From: Parashewanella curva
Lineage (GTDB): Bacteria; Pseudomonadota; Gammaproteobacteria; Enterobacterales; Shewanellaceae
NCBI RefSeq assembly: GCF_003675895.1
Contig: NZ_ML014765.1
Coordinates: 1-64,000 of the forward strand
Reading direction: 5' to 3'
Length of the DNA: 64,000 nt
The notes beneath the pieces were generated by a model, which did not search any database, was not told where the DNA came from, and saw only the letters and a program-made list of their open reading frames with translations. Shown here one piece after another: positions 27,416 to 42,265 of the stretch. Within the stretch, counting starts at the first letter, position 1, and every line of letters starts with the position of its first letter. The translations under genes and the position numbers were made by a program.

Positions 27416-28459
27416 ATGGAATATTTTCTTGCCTTTATGGGCTCATTTTTATTTACATTGTGCGGTGTTGCTGCATTAAAACCTCTCGCACAAAAAATGG
27501 GGTTAGTTGATATACCGAATGATCGTAAGTTGCATGTTGGTGATACGCCTTTAATTGGTGGGGCAGCAATTTTTTTGGGTGTGTTGTTTGCGTCGGCAAT
27601 AATAATGCCTTTAAGTCGAACTTTTAATTTGTACTTATTATCTGCAAGCCTTATTTTAATTTTGGGGATATTGGATGATAAGTGTGACTTGTCTGTACGC
27701 TCAAGACTTTTAGTGCAAGTTTTTGTGGCTTCAATATTGATCTTTGGAGCAAATTTTTACCTTTCAACATTTGGTTTTATCTTTCATTTTTTTGAGTTTA
27801 AGCTTGGGTATATTGGAACCGTAGTTACGGTGGTTGCTGTTATTGGGGCAATTAACGCATTTAATATGGTTGACGGTATTGATGGCTTAGCGGGAGCGCT
27901 CAGTTTAGTTACTTTTGGTTCACTTTCATTGCTTCTATATAAAGCTGGTAATCACTGGTTTATATTAGCTTTTTTATTTATTCCAGCTATTCTTGCTTAT
28001 CTCTCATTTAACTTACGCTGGCCTTTTAAAAACGTTACTAAGGTGTTTATGGGCGATGCAGGAAGCATGTTGATCGGGCTTTCAGTAGTTTGGCTGTTAG
28101 TCATTGGTGTTGAATCTGAAAATAGGGCCTTTTCTCCTGTTACAGCATTATATTTAATCGCTATCCCACTCATGGATATGGCTGCGATAATGTATCGAAG
28201 AATGAAGAAGGGTCAATCACCATTTAAGCCAGATAGAGATCATTTGCATCATATTTTCGAACGTGCAGGCTTCTCACGCCGTCAAACTTTAGTCAGAATA
28301 TTTTTAGGAGCGATTGTCATTGCTCTAATTGGTTTAATTGGTGAAGCTCTTCATGTACCAGAGTCCATAATGTTTGTTTTATTTGTCACCATCTTTGTTT
28401 TTTATAATTGGGCATTAATGCATGTTTGGCAACTGCTCAAAAGGTTCAGAAAGGATTAA
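27416..28459 (+). CDS. wecA: WecA-like undecaprenyl-phosphate GlcNAc-1-phosphate transferase
   Basis: A 347-residue polytopic enzyme of the WecA/MraY/WbpL family with about 11 membrane segments. Visible signatures are DIPNDRKLHVGDTPLIGGAA, the LGILDDK acidic pair, NAFNMVDGIDGLAGALS, FMGDAGSMLIG and the HLHHIF stretch (DRDHLHHIFERAG). It starts the repeat unit by placing a HexNAc-1-P, probably GlcNAc, on undecaprenyl phosphate. The end-of-cluster position just before galU is common in marine gammaproteobacteria. Whether GlcNAc or another HexNAc is used cannot be told. Confidence 0.87.
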   Translation: MEYFLAFMGSFLFTLCGVAALKPLAQKMGLVDIPNDRKLHVGDTPLIGGAAIFLGVLFASAIIMPLSRTFNLYLLSASLILILGILDDKCDLSVRSRLLVQVFVASILIFGANFYLSTFGFIFHFFEFKLGYIGTVVTVVAVIGAINAFNMVDGIDGLAGALSLVTFGSLSLLLYKAGNHWFILAFLFIPAILAYLSFNLRWPFKNVTKVFMGDAGSMLIGLSVVWLLVIGVESENRAFSPVTALYLIAIPLMDMAAIMYRRMKKGQSPFKPDRDHLHHIFERAGFSRRQTLVRIFLGAIVIALIGLIGEALHVPESIMFVLFVTIFVFYNWALMHVWQLLKRFRKD

Positions 28460-28461
28460 AA

Positions 28462-28497
28462 ATGAAAGCAGTAATTCCAGTTGCAGGGTTAGGAACC
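28462..28497 (+). pseudogene. galU: galU 5' fragment cut off by the IS element
   Basis: The ATG at 28462 is followed by codons for MKAVIPVAGLGT, the invariant start of UTP-glucose-1-phosphate uridylyltransferase. After codon 12 the sequence becomes the left end of an IS element, and no galU sequence resumes on the other side (the next gene is RfaH-like). The remainder of galU has therefore been lost from this locus. A short hybrid frame runs on for a few codons into the IS. Another galU elsewhere in the genome would be needed for UDP-glucose. Confidence 0.8.
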
Positions 28498-29752
28498 TTA
28501 AGCATCCCCTCATATAAATCAGTCATATCAACGGTTGTGAGGTAAAATACTCCAAATAACCTTAATACGCACAATGACCGCACCATGATAAATCAAGATT
28601 TAATTCATAATCACGTAGATGAACTTTTTGGCCATAGCATGCATGCTCGAAGAGTTCAGTCTTTAGCAAATGCGGCTCATGGTGTAATAGAAAAAGGTTC
28701 CCTCGCTGTTCACGCTATTGGTGCAGGCTTAGCTCAAGCTTGTGAGCTAAAGAGAAAGTCTGCAATAAAGCAGGTTGATAGGTTAGTGAGCAACACCAAG
28801 CTCAATGTATGGCAACTACTTGATAGCTGGGCTTCTTATATTATTGGTTCACGCAGCGAAATTGTTGTATCTCTGGACTGGACAGAGTTCGATGCCGACG
28901 AGCACTCCACTATTGTCTTAAGCATGCAAACCTCGCATGGTCGTAATACGCCTCTATTATGGAAAACGCACAAGAAACTCGGGTTAAAGGGGAACCGTAA
29001 TAATCATGAAGACGAGTTGCTGGTAAAGCTCAGAGAGATTGTTCCTCAAAGGGTTAAAGTTACTATTGTTGCCGATAGAGGCTTCAGTGACACCAAGCTA
29101 TTTAATTTCCTTGAGCATGAGCTTGGATTCGATTACGTCATTCGAAACAAAGTCTAATATCAAGGTTACAGACGCCGAAGGTGAGTTATTTCCAATCAAA
29201 GACTTCTTACTTCCGAGTGGACGAGCAAAGACTCTGAAGAATGTTGAGTTAACCAGCAAGCGTCACCCTGTGGCGAAAGTCATCTGTACCAAGAAAAAGG
29301 GAATGAAATCAGCATGGTTTATCGTCTCGAGCCGGGCAGATTTAGGTACACCGAAAATTTTACAGCTATATGGAAAACGCTGGGGAATTGAAACCACATT
29401 CAGGGACATTAAGGATTATCGCTTTGGAATGGGCATGAGCGAAACCTATACACGCTCAACCACAAGAAGAGATAGGCTATTTTTACTAAGCGCACTTGCG
29501 ATTGGTTTACTTACTCTGCTAGGTAAAGCAGGTGAAGAAGCTGATTTAGAAAAGACAATTAAAGCCAATACGACCAAAACTAGGAGCTACTCTTTATTTC
29601 GCCAAGGCTGCATTTACTATGAGCTTTTACCGACAATGAGAGAAGAATGGGCGCATCCATTAATGGAAAATTTTTATCGTTACCTTAAAAATCACAGTAT
29701 TTACCGCAGTGTCTTTGGGATTATTTAATTCAAAAATATGAGGGGATCTTTA
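28498..29752 (+). mobile_element. IS4-family insertion sequence (about 1.25 kb), inactive
   Basis: Bounded by imperfect 18-base terminal inverted repeats: TTAAGCATCCCCTCATAT at 28498-28515 and the complement of TTAAAGATCCCCTCATAT at 29735-29752 (16 of 18 match). It carries one transposase gene broken by a frameshift. The left end sits inside galU codon 13 and the right end 17 bases before an RfaH-like gene. No target-site duplication is seen in the flanks (GGAACC on the left, GCTCCC on the right), which fits an adjacent deletion after insertion. Confidence 0.8.
28585..29728 (+). pseudogene. IS4-family DDE transposase, frameshifted
   Basis: Two overlapping pieces make one transposase. 28585-29157 has the N-terminal region (NHVDELFGHSMHARRVQSL) and the first two acidic residues (SLDWTEFDAD and VADRGFSD). 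The rest continues in the +1 frame from about 29153 to 29728 with the Y-x2-R-x3-E-x6-K signature (YGKRWGIETTFRDIK). Reading through at 29149-29155 would be restored by removing one base (such as the G at 29152), giving RNKSNIKV. A +1 shift of this kind is not the usual programmed -1 frameshift, so a damaging insertion is most likely. Confidence 0.8.
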
Positions 29753-29769
29753 AGCTCCCGTATTCTATT

Positions 29770-30159
29770 ATGCAAAATCAGTGGTACCTCATAAAAGTAA
29801 AGCGAAATCAAACTGATCGCGCTTTACTCAATTTAACGCAAATGGACTGTAAGTGTTATCGGACACTATTATTTTCAAAATATTTGTTTGTCTGTATCGA
29901 AGAAGATAGTTTACTTTTCTCTAGTGCTAGATTTGCAAGAGGAGTGGACGATTTTTTTAGAATTCAAAATAATCCAGTTCCAATCCATAAAGAAGTAATA
30001 GATGGATTGATTTCACTAGGATTATTAATAGATTCTGAGAAAAGCCTTACCCAATTTAATGAGCCTGATAACAATATCTGCTCTCATCTTTTATCAATTA
30101 GTGGTTTTGATAACGAAGATAAGCGAGTAATAGAATTTTTTAAACTTGCTTTCAAATAA
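29770..30159 (+). CDS. RfaH/NusG-like antitermination protein, reduced
   Basis: A 129-residue protein whose first 80 residues align with the RfaH NGN domain: WYLIKVKRNQTDRALLNL, LFSKYLFVCIEED, ARFARGVDDFFR and an IHKEVIDGL helix. Compared with E. coli RfaH (162 residues) about 17 residues are missing before LFSKYLF, where RfaH has its beta-hairpin. The C-terminal part is short and diverged from the KOW domain. It lies at the end of the cluster, behind an IS, while an ops element lies at the front. No strong ribosome-binding site is visible. It may be a specialised antiterminator or a decaying gene. Confidence 0.65.
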   Translation: MQNQWYLIKVKRNQTDRALLNLTQMDCKCYRTLLFSKYLFVCIEEDSLLFSSARFARGVDDFFRIQNNPVPIHKEVIDGLISLGLLIDSEKSLTQFNEPDNNICSHLLSISGFDNEDKRVIEFFKLAFK

Positions 30160-30194
30160 AAGTACCTTCTCTCCATCTAACTAGTCAATTGAAC

Positions 30195-30836
30195 TCACGG
30201 CTCGATCATGTGTTCTTTCGAAGCTGTTTTTGTAGTTCTTAGTAACCGTAAACTCATCAAACTCGATGTAGCCTCAGCTGCAACGCCCTCTCTTTCCATT
30301 TCTATAGCAAAACGCTCACGCCACACTTGGGGTAATCCTTTTCGTACGTGCAATCGCTTCCCATCAAATCCTAAGTTCTTAACAGTCAAATGAACATGTG
30401 GGCTGTCGGTATCGGTGTGCAATGCCATGATGTATTGATGATTATCGGAGAAGGTCTTTTTTGCGAACTCTCTTACGGCTTTTTTCACAGCTTTAGGTTC
30501 GGTGCCATCGGGCATAGATAAAACGATGTGAGTACTATGGCGAGTGCGTCTTTTGGTATTGGTTTGCGGTTCTCCCCAATCTTTAGCTAGCAGATGCAGT
30601 GACTGTTTATCATGGTAGATCTGACCACATTCATCTTCAATTTCTAGCTTTCCATTACGGCTGATGTAATCAAAATGACTTCGAGTATGATCGGCAGTGT
30701 AGCAATAACCACTGATTTTCACCATGACTTCTGGAGGTTTTCGAGTAAAGCTTTTCGATGATTTGATACGGTTGGGTTTGTGCCAAACGTCATTATTGAG
30801 TAATCCAGATATTCGGTCATTCAGCAGTTGGCTCAT
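30195..30836 (-). CDS. MOB-type relaxase, probably C-terminally truncated
   Basis: A 213-residue protein on the minus strand. It contains the relaxase metal-binding motif H-x-D-x3-PH-x-H (ALHTDTDSPHVHLTVKNLG) and KAVREFAKKTF upstream. The catalytic tyrosine is likely in the N-terminal half (VMVKISGYCYTADHTRSHFDYISR). The ATG at 30836 lies inside mobC, overlapping by 20 bases; the frame is open further upstream. Relaxases usually continue with a helical or helicase/LPD domain after this region, whereas this one ends with SLRLLRTTKTASKEHMIEP right at the polysaccharide-cluster junction. It would nick oriT with MobC. Confidence 0.75.
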   Translation of the reverse strand: MSQLLNDRISGLLNNDVWHKPNRIKSSKSFTRKPPEVMVKISGYCYTADHTRSHFDYISRNGKLEIEDECGQIYHDKQSLHLLAKDWGEPQTNTKRRTRHSTHIVLSMPDGTEPKAVKKAVREFAKKTFSDNHQYIMALHTDTDSPHVHLTVKNLGFDGKRLHVRKGLPQVWRERFAIEMEREGVAAEATSSLMSLRLLRTTKTASKEHMIEP

Positions 30837-31347
30837 GATCAATGCTCCAACGAGTACGGTTTTTGTCGAGTAATTTGTAAACCTTATCTTTATGTTTATC
30901 AATTCTGTTACTGAGCATTTCAATCATTCCTTTAGTGATCTTGTCGCTCTCTCTGAATTCAATATTCAGCACTCTAGCTATTTGATTAAGGTTGCGACCA
31001 ATGGCTGATAACTGGCGGTTGGATTGACGTAAGATGTTTATTTCATCATCACTTAGCACTGGCTCTTGGTGTAAACGAGATAGAATACAAGCAGAAGCCC
31101 AGTTAGTTTGTGATAAATAGCCTTCCGATTTTGCTCTGGTAGATAAAAGGTGGTGATTATGATCCGAAAGTCTGATGGTAATTTTATTGGTTTTTAGCTC
31201 TTTAAAATCATTAGTGTTGGCCACACCAGGAGAAGATTGATTTATCAACGTTCTGATCATACTTGAGGCTGTAATTCCTTGAGTATCACAATAATCCCTC
31301 AAATTTGTTTTTTCTTCATCGCTGAGCAAAATTTCAATTCGTGCCAT
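30817..31347 (-). CDS. mobC: MobC-like relaxosome accessory protein
   Basis: A 176-residue protein with a ribbon-helix-helix-like N-terminus (MARIEILLSDEEKTNLRDYC) and a second similar segment (KITIRLSDHNHHLLSTRAK). The C-terminal MobC motif is NRQLSAIGRNLNQIARVLN. It helps the relaxase to bind and open oriT. It is encoded before the relaxase with overlapping frames, the normal order for mob operons. An oriT would be expected just upstream of its start (31348-31560), where a short inverted repeat is seen. Confidence 0.82.
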   Translation of the reverse strand: MARIEILLSDEEKTNLRDYCDTQGITASSMIRTLINQSSPGVANTNDFKELKTNKITIRLSDHNHHLLSTRAKSEGYLSQTNWASACILSRLHQEPVLSDDEINILRQSNRQLSAIGRNLNQIARVLNIEFRESDKITKGMIEMLSNRIDKHKDKVYKLLDKNRTRWSIDHEPTAE

Positions 31348-31595: not shown

Positions 31596-31919
31596 TCAAT
31601 CGTCTGTGGAGGCACTCTTAAACCAAATAATGGCTCTGAAAATTGCCTTTGTGGTGAAATACCCAAACAGAAAAAACATTGCTGTAGACTCAACGCTAAC
31701 GAATAAGTCATAGGATACGAAAGAGATAAGAAAAATATACTCCAATAGATGCAGAGGATAAATTTTCGTTCTTTGAACAAAGAGTTGACAGCTGTAGCCT
31801 ATAAAACCAAGTGAAAAAGCTAATAGGGACTCAGGAACCTTTTCATAGTATTCGTTATACAAGAGCAAACCTAGCCCTATAATCATACACCTAACTATTA
31901 GTTCTCTTGGTGAACCCAC
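31596..31919 (-). CDS. small membrane protein, unknown function
   Basis: A 107-residue frame on the minus strand from a GTG with GGAG about six bases upstream (complement of 31920-31930). It has three to four hydrophobic segments: CMIIGLGLLLYNEYY, LLAFSLGFIGYSCQLFV, LLEYIFLISFVSYDLFV and MFFLFGYFTTKAIF. No family is recognised. The good start site and coherent membrane pattern argue for a real gene, perhaps cargo of the mobile element. The AT-rich context makes a chance frame possible. Confidence 0.4.
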   Translation of the reverse strand: MGSPRELIVRCMIIGLGLLLYNEYYEKVPESLLAFSLGFIGYSCQLFVQRTKIYPLHLLEYIFLISFVSYDLFVSVESTAMFFLFGYFTTKAIFRAIIWFKSASTDD

Positions 31920-32220: not shown

Positions 32221-32724
32221 ATGAGTCTTACATTTGGTGAACGTTTGGAATACGCCTTGATGCAACTGCATGTTAGTCAAGCCGAACTAGGTCGGCGCAG
32301 TGGGGTATCTCAGCAGAGTATTAATTACATTGTTCAAAAGAAATTAGATAAATCCAAATTTGCTTTCCAGCTTGCTGACTGCCTTGATGTGAATCCGTCT
32401 TGGTTATTACACGGAGTTGGGCGATTCGAAAGCTGCTTTGCGATAGATATTCCGATCATTAATAGCTTTGTCGATGTGCAGAAATTTATTCGTGATGGGC
32501 AGTTACTGGATCACAAGAAGTACATCATCATCGAAAAAGACATTGGCAAGCTCAGCTTTGCTTTTCAGCTCCAGTTAGACGAACTCATTATTTGTGGTGA
32601 ACAAAATACCTTTGGCGCTAAACAGTTTCTAAAAATCGAACCACTCAAAATTGAAGTGTTAGATAAATCCGATGTGAATACCTTTCCTATTTATGAAATA
32701 AGGAGGCGCTGTGTCGAGTATTAA
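32221..32724 (+). CDS. XRE-family regulator A (paralogue of the gene at 34370)
   Basis: A 167-residue protein. Residues 5-62 are an XRE helix-turn-helix (LGRRSGVSQQSINYIVQKKL as the recognition part, then NPSWLLHGVG). The C-terminal 100 residues (IPIINSFVDVQKFIRDGQ, then IGKLSFAFQ and ENQNTF-like GEQNTFGAKQFLKI) form an unrecognised domain shared with the paralogue at 34370. It heads a tightly packed set: its end overlaps a small partner gene, then a membrane protein and a VOC protein. It probably regulates the mobile element or its own operon. A TTTGAC box lies upstream. Confidence 0.8.
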   Translation: MSLTFGERLEYALMQLHVSQAELGRRSGVSQQSINYIVQKKLDKSKFAFQLADCLDVNPSWLLHGVGRFESCFAIDIPIINSFVDVQKFIRDGQLLDHKKYIIIEKDIGKLSFAFQLQLDELIICGEQNTFGAKQFLKIEPLKIEVLDKSDVNTFPIYEIRRRCVEY

Positions 32725-33052
32725 TGCTTTTAAAAGTTCACTTGATTATGCCTTGAGCAACCTGTTTGCCAGCAAGATGAAAATCTTTATTGAACAAATG
32801 GTGTTTATGGATGGCACGTTCTGGCTACGCTTTCGGTTTGGCTCCAGTATGAAAATCCATAAAGAGCGTATTGAAGTTGTACATGAACAATATGGCGCAC
32901 CGTTTTTTAATGAAATTCAGTGGGCGAAATTCAATCAGTATTTGAGTTTCTATAAAACCTACCAGAATTTCATTAAATTCCAGTGTCCAGAAAGCCAAGC
33001 TAATTTTATCGAATTCGTAATGAAGGAGGTACAAGATGGCCACGGCTTCTGA
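32711..33052 (+). CDS. small partner protein A of the XRE regulator
   Basis: A 113-residue protein with no recognised family, starting at GTG with a strong AAGGAGG inside the end of the XRE gene. Its core (FWLRFRFGSSMKIHKERIEVV, KFNQYLSFYKTYQNFIKF) is similar to the product of the gene at 34860, which stands in the same position after the paralogous XRE gene. The conserved overlap and GTG start in both copies suggest translational coupling and a functional pair. A toxin-antitoxin or co-repressor relation is possible but not shown by any motif. Confidence 0.7.
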   Translation: MSSINAFKSSLDYALSNLFASKMKIFIEQMVFMDGTFWLRFRFGSSMKIHKERIEVVHEQYGAPFFNEIQWAKFNQYLSFYKTYQNFIKFQCPESQANFIEFVMKEVQDGHGF

Positions 33053-33722
33053 ATACCAGAAAATGCTGAGAACAACAAAGCTGAATTATATTTTGATTGG
33101 CTTGTTGATCACGACATCCATTACCTCTCACTTAATCGCCAATCGGTTTATCGTACTATTTGGTTATCCGGTGATCCCTGCCACTTTCACTTATATGTTG
33201 GTGTTTTCGCTTTCAGATATGTTGGCTGCACTTAATAATCGTCGGTTTGTGGTGTGGGTCTTGGTGGGGGAAGCACTTGCCAACTCCTATTGGTTGATGG
33301 CCGCCACGGGTGTTGATATTTCACCTGCGCCAGATTTCTTCCCACTGGCTCAGTCTTATCACGATGTGTTTGGCAGCGTACCTGAGTTGTTCCTTGCCAA
33401 TTTAGGTGGTGGCTTGATTATCGGCATCATTGATATACTTCTGTTCTCTCATTGGTATCAAGTCAAGCAATACCCGTATTTCAAATCTACATTATTCTCG
33501 ACCTTAGTGAGTATCAGTGCTTACACCTATTTCACCGATTACTTTGGGTTTAAAGGTAACTATCCAGAGAGTGTGTTTTTACTCGCTCATGTGAATATCG
33601 TTACCAATGTTCTTTGCGTAATTGTGTACTCCATTTTAAGTACATTGGCGATGAAAGCCATCAGGGAATACATTTCTACCAATCAACCAACTGCAGGAGT
33701 TCAAGCCCATGATCCAGTTTGA
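33036..33722 (+). CDS. polytopic membrane protein, VUT-family-like transporter
   Basis: A 228-residue protein with about six membrane segments: YILIGLLITTSITSHLIA, PATFTYMLVFSLSDMLAAL, VVWVLVGEALANSYWLMAA, LANLGGGLIIGIIDILL and two more near the C-terminus. The pattern, especially the early NRFIVLFGYPVIPATFTY and the SDM after a long helix, resembles the VUT/YhhQ family of vitamin or queuosine-precursor uptake proteins. The match is from memory and not certain. GAAGGAGG precedes the ATG, and the gene overlaps both neighbours, tying it to the XRE operon and to the VOC gene. Confidence 0.5.
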   Translation: MATASEYQKMLRTTKLNYILIGLLITTSITSHLIANRFIVLFGYPVIPATFTYMLVFSLSDMLAALNNRRFVVWVLVGEALANSYWLMAATGVDISPAPDFFPLAQSYHDVFGSVPELFLANLGGGLIIGIIDILLFSHWYQVKQYPYFKSTLFSTLVSISAYTYFTDYFGFKGNYPESVFLLAHVNIVTNVLCVIVYSILSTLAMKAIREYISTNQPTAGVQAHDPV

Positions 33723-34284
33723 AGGGTTTAGTCACATTAATATTGTGGTGAATGATTTAGAGCAAGCCTTGGCATTTTATCAAACTGTGTTTGGTGCCAT
33801 TCCTCAGCAATCGTTTCCACACTTTAAAAACATTGGTTTTAGTCGATCAGCTGGTTTTATAGAGCAGCCTGAAAAAGTCGATGTCACCATTACCTTTTTA
33901 GAGATCCCAAATACGGGAGTATATTTAGAGCTGATGGAATATCACCAACCTGTTGGCCGACAGGAAGTGACATTTAAAGCCACGAATGATGTCGGAAATG
34001 TCGGACACATAGCCCTCAAGGTGAGCAATATTGAGGCGGCATTTGAATTTGTGAAAGCGCAAAAAGACGTGACCTTAATTAGCCAAGATATTAATTATCA
34101 GCCTTACAAGATCGACACCATTACCCCTGACGATTTCTACTTTTTTGATAAAGAGCAAGAAGCTAATCTTGAAGCTAAACAAGAAGTTTGTGATGTGGTT
34201 TCTAACATCAAGTATTTTTACTTTATCGACCCTTATGGCGTGCAGTGGGAACTTGAGCAAGGGCATTTAGATATTGGCAGTTAA
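33709..34284 (+). CDS. VOC-family (glyoxalase/bleomycin-resistance-like) protein
   Basis: A 191-residue protein of the vicinal-oxygen-chelate fold. The first half-module is FSHINIVVNDLEQALAFYQTV (metal-ligand His), followed by VYLELMEY (ligand Glu). The second is GHIALKVSNIEAAFEFV with a late FYFIDPYGVQWELEQG. Substrates of this family range from methylglyoxal adducts to antibiotics, and the sequence does not decide. It ends the XRE-A operon and overlaps the membrane gene by 14 bases. Confidence 0.82.
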   Translation: MIQFEGFSHINIVVNDLEQALAFYQTVFGAIPQQSFPHFKNIGFSRSAGFIEQPEKVDVTITFLEIPNTGVYLELMEYHQPVGRQEVTFKATNDVGNVGHIALKVSNIEAAFEFVKAQKDVTLISQDINYQPYKIDTITPDDFYFFDKEQEANLEAKQEVCDVVSNIKYFYFIDPYGVQWELEQGHLDIGS

Positions 34285-34307
34285 TTAACCTTATTATTAA
34301 TATTTAA

Positions 34308-34325
34308 TTTGACTAAACTGTCAAA
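34308..34325. promoter_or_regulatory. TTTGAC inverted repeat, putative XRE operator
   Basis: TTTGACTAAACTGTCAAA is a perfect inverted repeat (6-6-6) located 52 bases before the second XRE gene and overlapping a TTGACT -35-like hexamer. The same TTTGAC half-site occurs before the first XRE gene (32164-32169) and twice before the AlpA-like gene (35303 and 35343-35358). The position and recurrence suggest an operator for the XRE proteins. Confidence 0.5.
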
Positions 34326-34369
34326 AACATTTGTATTTAGGAGGTAACAATCCCTTTGAGACAAAATAA

Positions 34370-34873
34370 ATGGAAACAACTTTAGGTGAACGATTAGAAC
34401 GAGCGTTGATTGAACTTCAAGTATCTCAAACTGAGTTGGCGAAACGCTCAGGGGTCACCAAACAAGCTATTAACTATATTATTAATCAAAAGCTTACTGA
34501 ATCAAAGCTTGCTCCTAAACTTGCCAATGCATTAAACATAAACCCCAATTGGCTAATGTTGGGAATTGGGCAGCTTGAATGTAAGATAAGTCGAGAAGTT
34601 CCCATTCTAAATAGCTTTGTGGCTTTACAAAAATACTTAAAAGATGGGATTTTTATATGGGGAAGTCCATCAATATTGACAGAAAAAAATTTAGGTAAAT
34701 TAGCCTTTGCTTTTCAAACAGAACTTAAAAAGGTGGCGTTATGTGGCCTTGAAAATACTTTTAATGCTACAGAGTTTTTGGTGATCGAACCAGCTAAGTA
34801 CGAAATCGTTACTGAGCAAATCGATGGTTCATTTCCTATTTATGAATGGAGGATACGCTGTGTTGAGTTTTGA
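34370..34873 (+). CDS. XRE-family regulator B (paralogue of the gene at 32221)
   Basis: A 167-residue regulator of exactly the same length and layout as the one at 32221. It has an N-terminal HTH (LAKRSGVTKQAINYIINQKL, then NPNWLMLGIG) and the same C-terminal domain (VPILNSFVALQKYLKDG, LGKLAFAFQTELK, ENTFNATEFLVIEP, closing FPIYEWRIRCVEF). The HTH is the best-conserved part; overall roughly half of the residues agree by eye. It overlaps its partner gene at 34860. An inverted repeat sits just upstream, suggesting autoregulation. Confidence 0.8.
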   Translation: METTLGERLERALIELQVSQTELAKRSGVTKQAINYIINQKLTESKLAPKLANALNINPNWLMLGIGQLECKISREVPILNSFVALQKYLKDGIFIWGSPSILTEKNLGKLAFAFQTELKKVALCGLENTFNATEFLVIEPAKYEIVTEQIDGSFPIYEWRIRCVEF

Positions 34874-35207
34874 CAATTTAACTAAATGGTTTCATTACCA
34901 TTCTGAATGTAACAGAGCCTCAGCCATATTGATTGTATTTAATGGATTGGTATTCAAAGAAAATGAATTTTTGATAGAGTATAGGTTTAGCAATTCCCGT
35001 AAGACCCTTGTTGATCCTTTGTATATTGTGGAAAAAGTTCTTCCTGCTTATGCCTTATCTATAGAAGAGGCGGCTAAATTTCAATGTTATGTTGCATGGA
35101 TAAAGACATACGATAGATTTATTCGATTCTTGCCCGAATCTACTCGCAAAGCTTTTATTGAGTACGTCCAGAGCGAACACAATAAAAATTTTTCAAGCAT
35201 TCATTAA
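34860..35207 (+). CDS. small partner protein B of the XRE regulator
   Basis: A 115-residue protein of unknown family, a paralogue of the product of 32711. Shared core: FLIEYRFSNSRKTLVDPLYIV and KFQCYVAWIKTYDRFIRFLPES, followed by FIEYVQSE. The frame is open from an earlier ATG (34824), but the GTG at 34860 matches the start of the paralogue both in position within the regulator gene and in the following MLSF/MSSI opening, with GAGG upstream. No motif reveals the activity. Confidence 0.65.
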   Translation: MLSFDNLTKWFHYHSECNRASAILIVFNGLVFKENEFLIEYRFSNSRKTLVDPLYIVEKVLPAYALSIEEAAKFQCYVAWIKTYDRFIRFLPESTRKAFIEYVQSEHNKNFSSIH

Positions 35208-35358: not shown

Positions 35359-35375
35359 ATATTTTAGGAGTGATT

Positions 35376-35585
35376 ATGATTAACAAAGAAACTGTTTTAT
35401 CAAGATCTCTTTCAAAGCAAATTTGGTTCACGAATGCTCAACTCTGTGAACATTTTGGTATCCATAGGGCAACTCTTTGCCGTTGGAAAAGGCACCGCAG
35501 GTTTCCTCAGGCTGAGATAAGGCTTACTGGACGAGAACGGTACGATATAAGAAAGATAAATGCTTTTTTACAATCAAAGCTGTAG
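35376..35585 (+). CDS. AlpA-like/MerR-type small HTH regulator
   Basis: A 69-residue DNA-binding protein with an AlpA/excisionase-like winged helix: FTNAQLCEHFGIHRATLCRW followed by KRHRRFPQAEIRLTGRERYD. The ATG at 35376 is preferred, with AGGAG five bases upstream; a GTG six bases earlier is in frame. AlpA-like proteins activate integrase or excision genes of prophages and islands. Here it sits just before the replication protein and about 3 kb before the Xis-like and integrase genes. TTTGAC boxes upstream suggest control by the XRE proteins. Confidence 0.72.
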   Translation: MINKETVLSRSLSKQIWFTNAQLCEHFGIHRATLCRWKRHRRFPQAEIRLTGRERYDIRKINAFLQSKL

Positions 35586-35617: not shown

Positions 35618-38296
35618 ATGTATCCAGAGTTATATCAAGAAGTGTTGCGCCGATTACCGAGAGACTTTGATTTCAAGAAGCAAAGTACCGACTTTCTACA
35701 ACAAGGCATTTGCCCTAACTGCGGTAAAAGAGAACTTTATACTTCTAAAAATGAACCTTGGTTACTTCGCTGTGGACGATTAAACAAATGTGGACATGAA
35801 CTGCATATCAAGCAGCTTTACCCTGATCTATTTAATTCTTGGAGCGAACGCTTTCCTGTCTACGATGAAAGTCATGGTTCAACCGATACCGCTGATGCTT
35901 ACTTAAAATACGGACGAGGTTTCACACTCAGTCTTATCAAAGATTGGTATCAACAAGGTTCCTATACTGATAAAACTACAGGCTTTAGTAGTTCGACGGT
36001 CAAATTCACCTTAACCAATGGCACCACTTGGGAAAGGTTAATTGATAAACCTGAGCGTTTTGGCAGTAAAAAAGCCATATTCAAAGGCAAATACCAAGGA
36101 GAATGGTGGCAAGCACCTAATTTTTGCGTTGATACCCTGCCGCAAGAGTTATGGCTAACTGAGGGAATATTTGATGCCATTGCTCTGATCCATTCTGGCT
36201 TAACTGCTGTTAGCACCATGAGCTGTAACAATTTTCCTGAAAAAGCTCTTCAACACCTTGAGGTGTTATTAGCTGGTAAGCCCAAACCAACTTTAGTCTT
36301 CGCCTTTGATACGGGTAATGCAGGCGAATCCTTTACTCAAAAATTTGTTGATAGAGCAAGAGAACTTGGTTGGCAAGCCACAGCAGCTCAACCCTACACA
36401 GCCAAAATAAAACTGGATTGGAATGAGCTACTTTTAAGAGAAAAGCTGACAGCGGAACATCTTGAACATTACCGACACCTTGGCAAATTGCTAATCGCAA
36501 GATCAGCAATGGATAAGGCGCTACTCATATACCAAAAGAATGGTAATACCGAATTTTCATTCGACTTTGAGCAAGCTTTATATTGGTACACTATTGATCT
36601 TAAAAATTTCCGTAAGGTGGAAGAACAGCTACTGGATGGTAACTCTAGCAAAGATACACGAGAAGAAGTTCGAGTACAGACTATTCGTGAGTCGAGTAAG
36701 GTAAAGTTACTTTGTAGGTGTTTTCCTCAAGCTTTGTATTCATGTCAGCTCTGTGATTCAAAAGAAATAAGCTATACCTTTAAAATTGATTTTCCACATC
36801 AAAATAACCGTATAATTACCAACTTTACAGGTTGTCAACTTAGCTCGTGTTATGAATTCAAACGAAGATTACTCAGTGTTGCACCTGGAGCGATCTTTCG
36901 AGGAAATACACACCAACTCGATCAGGTTGTTGAAAAGCAGCTATACAATATTAAGCATGTGCAATCCATTGATTTTATAGGATATAGCAAAGAGCATCAG
37001 TGTTATATATTTGATGATATAGCCGTTAAGCAAGGGAGGTTATACAGTCTCAATGATGAAGATTACTTTGATATTCCTCCCTTAAGTATCAAGTCGATTT
37101 ATTCTCTCAAGCTTAAAATCAACTCAAATCTAGAGCAGTTTGGCACAACTTGGATAAACCTTCTTTGGCAAGCCTTTAATACAAAAGGGATCATAGCCTT
37201 AGCGTTTTGGTTCGGTAGCTTGTTTGCTGAGCAAATTCGCGAGTCACAAAAGACGTTCCCATTTTTAGAAGTTACGGGTGAACCGGGTAGCGGAAAAACC
37301 ACATTGGTAGAATTTCTTTGGAAGTGTTGTGGTAGGTTAAATTATGAAGGTTTTGACCCTAATCGCGCATCTCCATCCGCTAGAGAAAGGCTCATGGCAC
37401 AAGTGGGCAACCTTCCAGTGGTTCTCAGTGAAGCAGATAGAGAGCAAAGCAAAGACCCTAAGTTAGCACGTTTTGATTGGGAAGAGTTGAAGATGCTCTA
37501 TCATGGCCGTTCAACATGCTATAAGGGAGTTAAAAGCAATAACAATGAAACTCGTGAGCCCAAATTTAGAGGTGCTATTGTTATTGAGCAAAACACTGAA
37601 GTGCAGGCATCAAGACCGATTTTACAGCGCATTATAAAACTGAGTTTTGAAACTCGCACCCAAACACCAGAAAGTTTATCGGCAGCAGAATGGTTAGAAT
37701 CGATTGACGTCGAACAGGTGTCTGGTTTTATTTTAAAAGCCATTGTAAATGAGCAGCAAGTGCTTGCACAGCTCAAAGACAGAGTGCCTTTCTACCTAAA
37801 GCAAATCAAAAAAGAATACAAAATTTACAGCAATCGTATAGTAAAAAATCATGCTCAGTTGTGTGCATTAACCGAAATTATGTCGTCTCTATTTGGTATA
37901 TCAGATGAATTTGTTGATCAGACGATTCAAGTTTTGAAAAGCATGGCGAAAGAGCGTCAGCAAGTAACAAGTAAAGAGATCCCGCAACTGCAATTATTTT
38001 GGGATATTTTTGAGTTCTTAGAGTCTGAACAAATCAATTCGGTTAACCATGCCAGAGATCCGGAGTTAATTGCTATTAATCTCAACCAGTTTTCTGAAAT
38101 TGCCAGTTCCCGTAAGCAACAAATGCCAATATTGAGTGAGTTAAAGCGACTACTCAAATTAAGCAAATTACACCCGTTTATCGGGCAAAAAGCTGTGAAC
38201 AGCGCCGTTAATGATCGGCTTAATAAATCTTTCCCAAACATGAATAAACCCGCTTGTGTTAAGTGCTGGGTATTCCATAAAGGAGAAAAGTCATGA
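35618..38296 (+). CDS. mobile-element primase/helicase-like replication protein
   Basis: An 892-residue protein. The N-terminus has a zinc-ribbon (CPNCGKREL and CGRLNKCGHEL). A Toprim-like primase region follows at about 180-260 (ELWLTEGIFDAIALIHSG, TLVFAFDTGNAG). From about residue 530 it has an ATPase domain with Walker A GEPGSGKTT (about 550) and the Walker B-side VVLSEADREQSKD. Such fusions replicate phage satellites, plasmids or integrated elements after excision. An Asp/Asn-rich middle region (about 380-500) is unassigned. The stop overlaps the Xis-like start. No host homologue is evident. Confidence 0.75.
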   Translation: MYPELYQEVLRRLPRDFDFKKQSTDFLQQGICPNCGKRELYTSKNEPWLLRCGRLNKCGHELHIKQLYPDLFNSWSERFPVYDESHGSTDTADAYLKYGRGFTLSLIKDWYQQGSYTDKTTGFSSSTVKFTLTNGTTWERLIDKPERFGSKKAIFKGKYQGEWWQAPNFCVDTLPQELWLTEGIFDAIALIHSGLTAVSTMSCNNFPEKALQHLEVLLAGKPKPTLVFAFDTGNAGESFTQKFVDRARELGWQATAAQPYTAKIKLDWNELLLREKLTAEHLEHYRHLGKLLIARSAMDKALLIYQKNGNTEFSFDFEQALYWYTIDLKNFRKVEEQLLDGNSSKDTREEVRVQTIRESSKVKLLCRCFPQALYSCQLCDSKEISYTFKIDFPHQNNRIITNFTGCQLSSCYEFKRRLLSVAPGAIFRGNTHQLDQVVEKQLYNIKHVQSIDFIGYSKEHQCYIFDDIAVKQGRLYSLNDEDYFDIPPLSIKSIYSLKLKINSNLEQFGTTWINLLWQAFNTKGIIALAFWFGSLFAEQIRESQKTFPFLEVTGEPGSGKTTLVEFLWKCCGRLNYEGFDPNRASPSARERLMAQVGNLPVVLSEADREQSKDPKLARFDWEELKMLYHGRSTCYKGVKSNNNETREPKFRGAIVIEQNTEVQASRPILQRIIKLSFETRTQTPESLSAAEWLESIDVEQVSGFILKAIVNEQQVLAQLKDRVPFYLKQIKKEYKIYSNRIVKNHAQLCALTEIMSSLFGISDEFVDQTIQVLKSMAKERQQVTSKEIPQLQLFWDIFEFLESEQINSVNHARDPELIAINLNQFSEIASSRKQQMPILSELKRLLKLSKLHPFIGQKAVNSAVNDRLNKSFPNMNKPACVKCWVFHKGEKS

Positions 38297-38502
38297 ATCA
38301 TAAATTAATGAAAGCTTCCCATTGGGCAAAACGTGAGTTTGACCAAGGTTCTATGCCATGTGCTAAAACACTTCGAAATTGGATTAAATCAGGCATTGTT
38401 GAAGGTCGCTTTATTGATGGTAAGCCCTATGTGTTTGCTAATGAAAGAGCTGGAATTGATGCACGTGTAGCTGATGGAGTCAAAGCATTATTGAGGGCTT
38501 AA
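38293..38502 (+). CDS. Xis-like excisionase / small DNA-binding protein
   Basis: A 69-residue protein with an excisionase-type winged-helix pattern: ASHWAKREFDQGSMPCAKTL, RNWIKSGIVEGRFIDGKPYV. AAGGAG lies nine bases before the ATG, and the gene overlaps the end of the primase gene. It precedes the integrase by four bases, the expected arrangement for a recombination directionality factor. Confidence 0.75.
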   Translation: MNHKLMKASHWAKREFDQGSMPCAKTLRNWIKSGIVEGRFIDGKPYVFANERAGIDARVADGVKALLRA

Positions 38503-38506
38503 TGAT

Positions 38507-39685
38507 ATGGCTGGTATTAGACAAAACAAACTTACTAAGCATTTGCCAGAGCATGTTTATTATGACGCTCGGCGAGGAAGCTTTAGGATAAAATTAGTGG
38601 ACGGAAGATTTAAAGAATTAGGACGAGATAGGGAAGTGGCTATTTCTGTTGCTAAGGAGTACAACCGAATAGCTAGACCTAAAGTGAATGTTACAGTGGA
38701 GCAATTGCTTGCTGATGACAAAGACAATGAAACTTTTTTTGGCTCTTGTGTAGATAATTTATTAAATAGGATCCTTCAAGAAGAACAGCCATCTACGAGA
38801 GTGAAGTATTCATTTGTGAGTGATGCTACACGTTGCAAAGAGTTTTTTTGTAATATTCCTGCATCAAAAATAGAGCTTCGTCATGTTAACGACTATATCA
38901 ATGAGTATCACGGTGATGCGAGCGCAAATGTTCAAAACCGAAAGGTAGCCTGGCTCAAAAAACTGTTTTCTTATGCCATAGATGAAAGCATTATGACGAC
39001 GAACCCTGCCACTCTAAAAAAAAGGAAAAGAGTTGCAGATAAAGCTCGTCAAAGACTGAAGTTGGAGTGGTATCACGCTATTCATGAGGCATCTCCTCTT
39101 TGGCTGCAAACTGCGATGGATCTCAGTTTACAAACGACACATGCTCGATTGGAAATATCAAGAATTCGTTATCATATACCTCCTTCTGATACGAGAAACT
39201 GTGGCTGTACTTGGTTTAAAGATCCTGTGACCACTGAGAATGGAGCAATCTACGGAAAACTTTTAATTCATAGGCAAAAGGTGCTACACAAAGAGTCTGC
39301 TCATGTTGCAATTCCGATTGGTGAGAAACTGAAGCAAATCATTGATCGCAGCAAAGATAAAGTAATGAGCCAATTTGTTGTGCATCGAATTCAAAAGCGT
39401 AAATTTAAAAAAGTAAGAAAAAATTTAAACCAAGTCCCCCTTAATGCTATTTCTAGCACGTTTACGGAGGTCAGAGATTTAATTGGTTGTTGTGACCATT
39501 TAGCACAAGAGCAGAGACCTACCTTTCATGAAATACGAGCTTTAGCCGCCCATTTGTATGATAAACAGGGGATCGATCTTCAGTCTCGAATGGCGCACGC
39601 TGATGAAAAAAGCACAAGAGTTTATACCAAAAACCATGTAGAATTTATTGAAGTTCCACTTGCTGAAATTGACACTGGGAAATAG
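38507..39685 (+). CDS. int: tyrosine-recombinase integrase
   Basis: A 392-residue site-specific recombinase. The N-terminal arm-binding-like part (MAGIRQNKLTKHLPEHVYYD) is followed by a SAM-like core-binding domain (about 75-165) and a catalytic domain. The first catalytic Arg lies in TTHARLEISRIRY, the H-x-x-R in FHEIRALAAHLYD, the second His in RMAHADEKST, and the nucleophilic Tyr in RVYTKNH. It is the last gene of the mobile region; after a terminator the sequence becomes host-like, so the right attachment site should lie just downstream. No tRNA is seen there. Lambda-type integrases with this N-terminus are common on ICEs and prophages. Confidence 0.9.
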   Translation: MAGIRQNKLTKHLPEHVYYDARRGSFRIKLVDGRFKELGRDREVAISVAKEYNRIARPKVNVTVEQLLADDKDNETFFGSCVDNLLNRILQEEQPSTRVKYSFVSDATRCKEFFCNIPASKIELRHVNDYINEYHGDASANVQNRKVAWLKKLFSYAIDESIMTTNPATLKKRKRVADKARQRLKLEWYHAIHEASPLWLQTAMDLSLQTTHARLEISRIRYHIPPSDTRNCGCTWFKDPVTTENGAIYGKLLIHRQKVLHKESAHVAIPIGEKLKQIIDRSKDKVMSQFVVHRIQKRKFKKVRKNLNQVPLNAISSTFTEVRDLIGCCDHLAQEQRPTFHEIRALAAHLYDKQGIDLQSRMAHADEKSTRVYTKNHVEFIEVPLAEIDTGK

Positions 39686-40435
39686 TCATCTATCTGATAC
39701 AAATAAAGATCACTATAAATGCTCATAAAGGTAACTTATTAACCATTCTGTTTTTTGAAAAGTTACCTTTTTTTGTTGATTAAATTCTTAATTGCTTCAG
39801 TGTCTTAGCTTCGATTGTAAACTTATGTAACCAAGGTTACTATTTTCCGGTGGCGTATTGAGTTATATGAGTTTGTCCTCGATTGTCGTTTAGTTCGTTA
39901 GTTTACATTCTGATCACTAGCACTCAACCAAGAGCTTTCTCCTTTATTAATGCCTATATCAAGCAGCCTGCAACTCTATTTTCGCTTGAAATGCTATCTG
40001 TATTTTTGAGCTCAAGTATCATGTATAGTGCCTGAACTGAACATAAATCATGTGAAAGTATATGCTCAGATACTTAGATAAATTGTTATCAAATCATTCG
40101 ACTTTGCAGTATTTCAAATATGGCTTTGAGTGCTAAAAATATCAGTAACAAAGCAGGAACAACACAAATTTTTAGCTGAATTAGCATAATGAAAACTTAG
40201 ATATGTAAATGATGGGAAAGTGGTATAATTGCGCAAAATAAAGGTTTATCTTATTGATTTATAATAGCTCTTTAATACCTAAAATGCTTAATTTTTGCAA
40301 AATTTAGCAAAAGCTTTATTTTTATTAAAATCAATAAGATAAGTCACGATGATAATAATTAAGTATAGATGACAATTTTGAAATATCACTTGAGATGATG
40401 ATTTCAAAAAACAAACTAAATTTAGGGAAATATAA
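39686..40435. other. 750-base intergenic region, element/chromosome junction
   Basis: No gene is seen between the integrase and the DUF885 gene. The region holds the terminator at 39727, a TATAAT at 40234-40239 without a good -35, and a 15-base perfect inverted repeat TTATCTTATTGATTT (40246-40260) / AAATCAATAAGATAA (40328-40342). The right end of the integrated element should fall here or just inside the integrase 3' end. No tRNA-like sequence or recognisable direct repeat to a left end is visible in the window. Confidence 0.5.
39727..39774 (+). terminator. rho-independent terminator after the integrase
   Basis: AAAGGTAACTT (39727-39737) pairs with AAGTTACCTTT (39760-39770), with a 22-base loop and a run of T residues to 39774. 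It closes the integrase transcription unit. Confidence 0.75.
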
Positions 40436-42265
40436 ATGAAAAAGTCTCTTCTTTTTATGGCGATAAGTTCAGTATTAACTTTATCTGCCTGTCAGGATAA
40501 TGACGTACAAGAAACTCAAGTGACATCTAAAAAGCAAGCTTCATCGGCTGTTTCTAGTAAACAGCAGTCAGCTGAAAAGATTTATCTTGATCTGGTTGAT
40601 AATTACTTTAAAGATCAACTTAAGTTAAATCCTTTAATGGCTACTTTTGTTGGAAATAACGATTATAACGATGAATTTGGTAGCAACCTTACAGAAGCAT
40701 ATCTCAAAGCTCGCCACGAATTAAATCAAGGTTATTTGGATAAGCTAAAAAAAATTGATCGCGCTAGCTTGCCGACAAACCTTCAATTCAGTTACGACTT
40801 ATTTGGTTACGACCGTAACATGGAGCTGATTTCAGAAACCTATCCGTCACGTTGGTTACCGATGAATCAATTTTATAACACGGTTATTACCATGGTTCAG
40901 CTAGGTACAGGAGAAAGCGCACAACCGTTCAAAACTGTTGAAGACTATCAAAACTGGTTGTCTCGTCTTGATGGATTTATTGAGTGGACTCAACAAGCTC
41001 AAGAGCGTATGAACCAAGGCATTGAGAGCAAAGTGGTACTTCCACGTGTTTTAGCTGAGAAAATAGTGCCACAGCTTCAAGCTCATATTGTTGCCAATCC
41101 TGAAGAAAGTATCTTTTTTGCGCCAATCAAAAATATTCCTGACAATTTTACCGACTCGCAGAAAGCTGAGTTAACGGCGTCTTATAAAAAAATGATTGCT
41201 GAAAAGTTGGTTCCAGCTTTAGCTTCATTAAAAGACTATTTTAAAGATACCTATATCCCTAAAACACGTGCGGCTGATGGTTGGTGGGGATTGCCTAATG
41301 GTAAAGCTTGGTATCAGCATTTAGCAAACCAGCACACCACTACCAAAATGCCCGTAGATGAAATTCATGAGATTGGGTTATCAGAAGTGGCTCGTATTTT
41401 ATCTGAAATGGATAAAGTTCGTGAACAAGTTGGATTTAAAGGTGATTTAAAAGCATTTTTCGCACACCTATCGTCAGATCCTAAATACTTCTTTACTGAG
41501 CGCCAAGACCTAGTTGATGGTTATATGGGGCTTAAAGACAGTATTAACAAAGAGCTGCCTAAATATTTCAATGTAATGCCAGAGGCGGATTACATTGTTA
41601 AGCCAGTAGAAGCGTTCCGTGAACAATCTGCTGCTGGTGCATCTTATCAATCTCCTGCTGTAGATGGTTCTCGTCCAGGCATTTTCTACATCAATACCTA
41701 CAATTTGAAAGCTCAGCCTAAGTGGGGCATGACAACCTTATCTTTGCATGAAGCGGCTCCAGGACATCATTTTCAAATAGCCATTAAGCAAGAACTTAAA
41801 GGTGTGCCTCAGTTCCAACGCTTTAGTGGGTATACCGCTTTTGAAGAGGGATGGGCGCTTTATGCAGAATACCTAGGAATGGAAATGGGTTTATTTAAAG
41901 ATCCTTACCAATACTTCGGCAAGTTATCAGATGAAATGCTTCGTGCGATGCGTTTAGTTGTTGATACAGGTCTACATGCTAAAGGCTGGAGTCGTGAACA
42001 AGCAATTCAATACATGAAAGATAATTCGCCAATGGCTGAATCTGATATTACCGCTGAAGTTGAGCGTTATATGGCTATTCCGGGGCAGGCATTGTCGTAT
42101 AAAATTGGTCAGTTAAAGATTATCGAGCTTCGTGAACGTGCTGAAAAAGCACTGGGTAATAAATTTGATATTAAGGCATTCCATGATCAAATTTTGACGA
42201 CCGGCTCACTGCCAATGGCGGTGATGGAAGATAAAATTGATAGCTGGATTGCATCTAATCAATAA
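40436..42265 (+). CDS. DUF885-family lipoprotein, putative metallopeptidase
   Basis: A 609-residue secreted lipoprotein: signal peptide with lipobox LTLSA-Cys19. The DUF885 catalytic signatures are LHEAAPGHHFQIAI (HExxx-H zinc ligands) and AFEEGWALYAEYLGME (third ligand Glu), followed by DEMLRAMRLVVDTGLHAKGW. The family is related to M1/M3-like zincins and is common, often in several copies, in Shewanella and related marine bacteria. It should act in the periplasm on peptides. It is the first apparently core-chromosomal gene after the mobile element and ends in its own terminator. Confidence 0.88.
   Translation: MKKSLLFMAISSVLTLSACQDNDVQETQVTSKKQASSAVSSKQQSAEKIYLDLVDNYFKDQLKLNPLMATFVGNNDYNDEFGSNLTEAYLKARHELNQGYLDKLKKIDRASLPTNLQFSYDLFGYDRNMELISETYPSRWLPMNQFYNTVITMVQLGTGESAQPFKTVEDYQNWLSRLDGFIEWTQQAQERMNQGIESKVVLPRVLAEKIVPQLQAHIVANPEESIFFAPIKNIPDNFTDSQKAELTASYKKMIAEKLVPALASLKDYFKDTYIPKTRAADGWWGLPNGKAWYQHLANQHTTTKMPVDEIHEIGLSEVARILSEMDKVREQVGFKGDLKAFFAHLSSDPKYFFTERQDLVDGYMGLKDSINKELPKYFNVMPEADYIVKPVEAFREQSAAGASYQSPAVDGSRPGIFYINTYNLKAQPKWGMTTLSLHEAAPGHHFQIAIKQELKGVPQFQRFSGYTAFEEGWALYAEYLGMEMGLFKDPYQYFGKLSDEMLRAMRLVVDTGLHAKGWSREQAIQYMKDNSPMAESDITAEVERYMAIPGQALSYKIGQLKIIELRERAEKALGNKFDIKAFHDQILTTGSLPMAVMEDKIDSWIASNQ

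Follow-up and report, generated by a model that had tools for sequence, protein, structure and literature searches.

Duplicated regulator–partner gene pairs in the probable control region of an integrative mobilizable element of Parashewanella curva

We analysed a 64,000-nucleotide stretch of Parashewanella curva DNA (NCBI RefSeq assembly GCF_003675895.1, contig NZ_ML014765.1, positions 1 to 64,000 of the forward strand), here called the window, in which two gene pairs between positions 32,221 and 35,207 each join an XRE-family regulator, R, to a small downstream partner, S. They lie within an integrative mobilizable element, as its probable control region, and do not form a stand-alone module. 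An earlier note made from the sequence alone had described two XRE regulators of identical length, each followed by a GTG-started small protein overlapping the regulator end in the same way, with the pairs bracketing a VUT-like membrane gene (VUT) and a gene of the VOC superfamily. This description is accurate throughout, and R1 and R2 proved 50% identical end to end. The cassette comprises the following features:

32221–32724, + strand: R1, XRE/434-type putative repressor, 167 amino acids (aa) (Pfam HTH_3, 24.1 bits, cutoff 23); plasmid relatives lie beside transfer operons
32711–33052, + strand: S1, partner of R1, GTG start, 113 aa, 14-bp overlap with R1 (homology to S2; AlphaFold model)
33036–33722, + strand: VUT-like membrane protein, distant member of the Vut_1 family (Pfam Vut_1, 30.6 bits, cutoff 27.2)
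33709–34284, + strand: VOC-superfamily protein, 191 aa (Pfam Glyoxalase, 2.8e-12); 57% identical on Arsenophonus plasmids
34306–34343, + strand: conserved box before R2 (leave-one-out matrix 33.5 bits; next best in 64 kb, 11.9)
34321–34334: 434-type palindrome inside the box, one mismatch (pattern count)
34370–34873, + strand: R2, second XRE/434-type putative repressor, 167 aa (Pfam HTH_3, 33.2 bits, cutoff 23)
34860–35207, + strand: S2, partner of R2, GTG start, 115 aa, 14-bp overlap with R2 (homology to S1)

VUT and VOC overlap their upstream neighbours (S1/VUT at 33036 and VUT/VOC at 33709), so that R1-S1-VUT-VOC reads as one coupled operon; the unit is this four-gene operon plus a second R-S pair, R2-S2, a duplicate lying nearer the primase genes of the element. 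For S2 an open reading frame tool prefers an upstream ATG at 34824 (127 aa), and we favour the GTG start because the 14-bp overlap recurs at the R2/S2 junctions of loci L006 and L011 and on two Arsenophonus plasmids. The R1/S1 junction of L011 has an 11-bp overlap and an ATG start. A Shine-Dalgarno-like GGAG or GGAGG stands within the last R codons at the five Parashewanella R/S junctions examined. A search of the genome with S1 as query recovered S2 (E 3.7e-8, 31% local identity) and therefore places the partners in one family, with only 15% identity between them in the multiple alignment. The arrangement is more than chance: the window's genome has S in five copies and full-length R in four, and dN/dS is below 1 in the four S pairs measured, with dS saturated for S1. 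Identity to the first sequence is 15–53% for S against 48–60% for R, so S evolves the faster of the two, yet under constraint.

Both regulators exceed the HTH_3 cutoff and thus belong to the XRE/Cro-CI family, and the closest solved relatives of their helix-turn-helix (HTH) domain are 434 Cro and the 434 repressor (profile E 2.3e-11). The C-terminal domain, which the earlier note had left without a family, stayed without one: R has no significant match beyond the HTH, and Pfam finds no S24 peptidase in R1 or R2 up to E 10, which sets them apart from LexA/CI repressors of the S24 type. This domain is conserved as far as plasmid relatives. The AlphaFold model of R has a mean pLDDT of 78.2 and a pTM of 0.54, and HTH matches filled its structure-search lists, so that these lists barely test the C-terminus. 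The most likely role of R is that of an autoregulated repressor of the mobile element. We put at about even the broader proposal that the R-S pairs constitute the regulatory core of the element, with R an autoregulated CI-type repressor and S a modulator of R.

The same cassette occurs on plasmids. A tblastn search with VOC found, at 57% identity, four plasmids of Arsenophonus nasoniae, a bacterium that lives with insects. Both that were opened (L046 and L048) show the gene order of the window, with an R of 174 aa, an S of 112 aa, a VUT-like frame and a VOC of 192 aa, and with the 14-bp R/S overlap. The VUT frame of L046 is unannotated but open, and in L048 the R-S, S-VUT and VUT-VOC neighbours all overlap. 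With E-values that refer to a seven-sequence set, R1 shares 30–33% identity over 168 aa with the Arsenophonus R proteins (E 2e-31 and 2e-30), VUT 25% with that of L048 (E 3e-12), and VOC matches at E 6e-84. Arsenophonus S was recognised by profile only, over its full length, at 15.6 and 13.4 bits (E 7e-6 and 3e-5; high bias terms of 9.9 and 9.5); among 998 listed of 1000 shuffled copies of the two proteins the best score was 8.6 bits, and the match is in keeping with where the gene lies, how long it is and how it overlaps R. For Arsenophonus VUT, Pfam gave nothing at 0.01. On the opposite strand, a VirB operon adjoins the cassette.

R relatives extend further than the cassette. Plasmid records numbered 16 with R1 as tblastn query at 1e-8 and 12 with a P. 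syringae relative at 1e-10, together 19 distinct records. Twelve of these were opened (two Arsenophonus, Pantoea, Proteus, two P. syringae, Erwinia pyrifoliae, Erwinia tracheiphila, two Serratia symbiotica and two Morganella); the other seven are sister records of opened ones. The earlier note had proposed a survey of gene neighbourhoods; in 11 of the 12 records, R is divergent from a transfer operon of the F or VirB type that starts within about 2 kb on the other strand, with a NusG-family gene intervening in four (Pantoea, two Erwinia and one Serratia plasmid). The exception, S. symbiotica pSsAf2.3-2, has R near TcpQ and secretin-like genes, with queC and a queuosine precursor transporter on the other side. 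Three plasmid R proteins searched in Pfam gave the HTH only, and a Morganella R gave nothing at 0.01. R1 of the window likewise diverges from a mobilization gene, MobC, 873 bp away, so that divergence from transfer or mobilization genes, the placement of a transfer-region repressor, is common to the window and these 11 plasmids. Judged by gene position, R relatives may repress transfer on plasmids.

A candidate operator lies in front of R2. In five islands the box AATTTGACT-N6-ACAAAAAnGnTTGTATTTA stands before R2, or before R where there is just one, and a matrix trained on the other four ranks it first in each element at 31–40 bits, the next best site reaching 11.9 bits or less. Within it, ACAA-N6-TTGT, the form of the 434 operator, is exact in four of the five islands and has one mismatch in the window. 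Mononucleotide shuffles predict 0.000–0.010 exact occurrences per region; the pattern was noticed in the same boxes, so this count is partly post hoc.

The genes around the cassette define the host element:

30195–30923, − strand: MobA-type relaxase (Pfam Relaxase 1.9e-18, 67.4 bits; tblastn relatives at 63–75% in L006, L011 and L012)
30817–31347, − strand: MobC/NikA-like relaxosome protein, divergent from R1 (Pfam NikA-like 8.4e-9 and MobC 5.4e-7, both over cutoff)
35373–35585, + strand: AlpA/excisionase-like small HTH protein (weak sub-cutoff HTH matches; same-place relatives in L007, L011, L012 and L040)
35618–38296, + strand: Toprim primase-helicase (Pfam Toprim_2 8.9e-10)
38293–38502, + strand: Xis-like small protein, kept beside the integrase in L012 and L040
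38507–39685, + strand: tyrosine integrase (Phage_integrase 7.4e-5, 23.0 bits, cutoff 27.1; relatives beside Xis and primase in L012 and L040)

Relaxase and MobC over cutoff, together with an integrase recognised by sub-cutoff matches (including an NCBIfam tyrosine recombinase at 1.7e-5), mark an integrative mobilizable element. No VirB or Tra match appeared among the searched genes between relaxase and integrase. Relatives of the primase share 32–44% identity in 20 listed of 21 phage records and 39–42% in four plasmid records. The flanks 28400–30300 and 39600–41200 share only one 11-mer, and no convincing attachment repeats were found between them. Three further features were seen nearby: a 107-aa hydrophobic, GTG-started open reading frame (ORF) between MobC and R1 (31596–31919, − strand; no Pfam match at 0.01), a 129-aa ORF with a NusG match just beyond the relaxase end (29770–30159; 22.4 bits, cutoff 22.2), and two overlapping ORFs in different frames, each matching part of DDE_Tnp_1, that make up one interrupted transposase (28585–29728).

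Within Parashewanella the cassette recurs in several forms. In the window's genome, contig C13 carries the window copy, the C115 copy reads S1-VUT-VOC-R2-S2 and lacks R1, and in the C95 copy S lies upstream of R. Two forms occur in P. hymeniacidonis, a complete R1-S1-VUT-VOC-R2-S2 in L011 and a single S-R in L012. Loci L007 and L012 share the S-R order without VUT-VOC. Between S-R and MobC, where others have VUT-VOC, these two hold a sub-cutoff LuxR-type (GerE) gene and a TMP-TENI (ThiE-like) gene (L007, 4751–6226; L012, 8629–10033), and the L011 island carries an AbiEi/AbiEii pair, Pfam type IV toxin-antitoxin families, as cargo (3253–4708). Genome surveys for S, R and VUT were loose first-pass searches of partial samples. 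S1 as query found S in 2 of 97 genomes, the window's own and one of the same genus (G002); an S profile and full-length R were each found in 1 of 394 members of the order, again the window's genome; and at genus level full-length R occurs in two of five genomes, in seven copies. MobC matches are more numerous, at 34 across all five genus genomes, itself included (some partial, two with a stop), and counts of 11, 11, 7 and 4 in G000, G002, G003 and G004, with one in G001, indicate that the island family has multiplied within single genomes. Five of the 34 are R islands.

Eight sibling islands (L040 and L065–L071), chosen for an R-profile HTH hit near MobC, were opened, and all eight place a CI-like protein of 211–232 aa divergent from MobC, within 0.7 kb in four (L040, L065, L066 and L067) and at 2 to 6 kb in the others. 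These siblings thus resemble R in diverging from MobC in the same element family and differ from it in that all match Peptidase_S24 over cutoff, are longer, and have no S in the stretches opened. LexA/CI proteins read GDSM at the catalytic serine; three siblings retain this motif, and five (L040, L065, L069, L070 and L071) read GDGM, where the self-cleavage serine may have been lost.

Several findings, besides the post hoc element in the palindrome count, weigh against R-S as the regulatory core. Exact sites are missing before R1 (both islands, the window and L011), before MobC in six islands (none above chance), before the window's AlpA and before R on the scanned plasmids, where one-mismatch sites occur only in L056, L057 and L058, near the expected number; the palindrome thus names no target genes. 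Exact sites do precede AlpA in L011 and L040, the latter an island with an S24-type repressor and no R. A sigma-70 scan does not list the R2 box (13 promoters found, 11.8 expected in the region). The R C-terminus aligns only partly and weakly with the S24 domain (hhalign E 0.011, probability 4%). Several plasmid records are near-identical, so independent cases number fewer than 11; R occurs without S on ten plasmid stretches and hence does not depend on it; and for 21 of the 34 MobC matches the R profile finds no R and no CI-like protein (E 1e-10) within 10 kb of the match on its contig, which means that many islands must rely on other means or be broken.

The partner family, unrecognised in the earlier note, remained so in the profile searches that the note had suggested: S1 and S2 have no convincing match in Pfam, NCBIfam, PHROGs or PADLOC, toxin families included, and the best Pfam E-values are 0.057 and 0.12. 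An AlphaFold model built with eight relatives (mean pLDDT 86.6, pTM 0.71) predicts a helix, three strands and three helices (H-E-E-E-H-H-H). Of the 342 PDB matches that Foldseek returned with E up to 10, not one reached 0.001, and of 977 BFVD matches none was significant; the S sequence matched no PDB sequence. With VIA-align the best Z was 4.1, to chromo-shadow domains (rmsd 3.7 over 50 residues), a level the tool flags as common and that we do not interpret. No S was found in phages or viral contigs and no S2 in plasmids, and Arsenophonus S searched in plasmids matched only the four Arsenophonus records.

S could instead be a structural partner that completes the C-terminal oligomerization module, R and S together making one CI. 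The shortness of R beside the sibling S24 repressors (167 against 211–232 aa), the partial and weak collinearity of its C-terminus with the S24 domain and the translation of S from the R tail fit this idea, which we nevertheless regard as unlikely, as the S model has no PDB match at the threshold above, no profile match links the R C-terminus to S, and plasmid R relatives of 176–182 aa do without S. That missing profile match also led us to reject a relationship between the R C-terminus and S, and a degenerate S24 domain in R is kept as a suggestion only, given the weak alignment. S as an ImmA-like metalloprotease was likewise rejected, the aligned S sequences showing no HExxH motif by eye and no Pfam peptidase match.

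The earlier note had suggested a new regulatory, defence or toxin-antitoxin-like system. Its regulatory part stands, through R relatives divergent from conjugation operons and the 434-like site before R2; the other two found little support. For defence, no PADLOC match extends beyond the HTH. An addiction pair, with S the toxin and R a DNA-binding antitoxin, would account for a small overlapping partner beside an XRE regulator, duplicated on a mobile element, and the R HTH has weak sub-cutoff HigA-type and YdaS-type matches (R2 YdaS_toxin 15.0 bits, cutoff 30). Yet the regulator is long, with its conserved C-terminus; S diverges fastest; S lies upstream of R in two islands; and R does without S on the ten plasmid stretches, where the best S-profile E-values are 3.9 (L054–L061) and 2.5 (L062 and L063). 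S1 also survives in C115 of the window's genome (G000) without an adjacent R1, a case only mildly against addiction because R2 is present there. We therefore consider a toxin-antitoxin pair improbable, and dropped it and defence as leading readings, S having no family match and the YdaS_toxin match of R2, like the PADLOC matches, lying in the HTH.

Between two islands, identity is 74% for VOC, 67% for VUT, 64% for R1, 60% for R2, 52% for S1 and 30% for S2, an order that fits an enzyme of fixed substrate with a drifting regulator pair. VUT falls below the queuosine precursor transporter (YhhQ/VUT) family model (NCBIfam TIGR00697, 23.2 bits, cutoff 50.95); it was found in 1 of 247 genomes, the window's own, and tblastn at 1e-5 found none on plasmids, Arsenophonus VUT being seen by pairwise blastp. 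VOC has relatives at E 1e-25 or better in three other genomes of 197 and none in viral contigs; no VUT-like ORF was seen by eye beside the relative in L050, the sole one of these loci looked at. On a Serratia symbiotica plasmid (L059, 3980–6813), an R homologue lies next to queC and to a queuosine precursor transporter clearly of the Vut_1 family, which shares a 14-bp overlap with an HTH regulator of its own. A 43% VOC relative lies on a Xenorhabdus bovienii megaplasmid (L047) within a biosynthesis-like cluster that includes an LD-carboxypeptidase, a nucleoside phosphorylase, a leucine-tRNA ligase, an aaRS-related gene and an MFS transporter.

VUT and VOC may simply be carried along as cargo, or may supply R-S with a signal. 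If cargo, R might simply regulate its own operon S-VUT-VOC, for metabolite uptake or detoxification, that rides mobile elements, with S an accessory or co-regulator unrelated to transfer. The overlaps coupling the four genes in the window and in Arsenophonus L048, the conservation of VOC above R1, S1 and VUT (74% against 52–67%) and as far as Arsenophonus, the setting of the Xenorhabdus relative and the R-type palindrome not above chance before MobC all speak for this reading. Against it, cassette-free R adjoins transfer operons on plasmids, and S-R stands without VUT-VOC in L007 and L012. On balance we hold it doubtful, though a possibility to be taken seriously.

The analysis directly shows that the genes are homologous and form an operon, that they recur next to the transfer genes of unrelated elements, and that a conserved palindrome stands before R2. 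With R-S as the regulatory core, R, through its 434-like DNA-binding domain and C-terminal domain, would repress its own promoter (R2) and keep mobilization and/or replication genes of the element quiet. S, whose start codon lies inside R, would be translated from the tail of the R message and take the place of the RecA-triggered self-cleavage of LexA/CI-like repressors, its most likely role being that of an antirepressor or co-regulator of R. Repression itself, contact between R and S, the way in which S shifts R activity and whatever part VUT and VOC play are inferred.

Known switches offer partial parallels. R resembles phage 434 Cro/CI, its closest HTH relatives, also in the operator form of the R2 site, and differs in a C-terminus that Pfam does not recognise as an S24 peptidase and in coming with S. 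In ICEBs1, likewise a mobile element, the XRE repressor ImmR is followed by the small protein ImmA, which, unlike S, is an HExxH metalloprotease. S is most likely a modulator of R and, by analogy with the Bacillus plasmid pLS20, an antirepressor: on pLS20 the XRE-type master repressor RcoLS20 keeps transfer off and the antirepressor RapLS20, which answers to a signal in RcoLS20-RapLS20-Phr control, relieves it (PMC3814332). Both systems pair an XRE repressor with a separate partner, in our case a putative antirepressor; S has no Rap-type match in Pfam or NCBIfam, and host, element and families differ. A partial literature search recognised no description of the R-S-VUT-VOC cassette, and we make no claim of its absence from print.

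The cassette probably helps to decide when these elements move. A more specific and rather improbable form is a self-contained small-molecule circuit for horizontal transfer in Gram-negative bacteria, in which VOC would make or alter a diffusible compound, VUT transport it across the membrane, S sense it and lift or tune R, and R gate transfer; if true, it would do by chemical means what peptides do for the repressor/antirepressor switches of Gram-positive plasmids, and be common to elements as unrelated as Parashewanella islands and Arsenophonus VirB plasmids. R and its relatives are candidate repressors of conjugation and mobilization genes that recur on Gram-negative elements unrelated to one another. 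The switch may be the fast-evolving S family, which was found in none of the libraries and collections searched. If S together with VUT and VOC links a metabolite to transfer, the trigger for island and plasmid movement would become testable.

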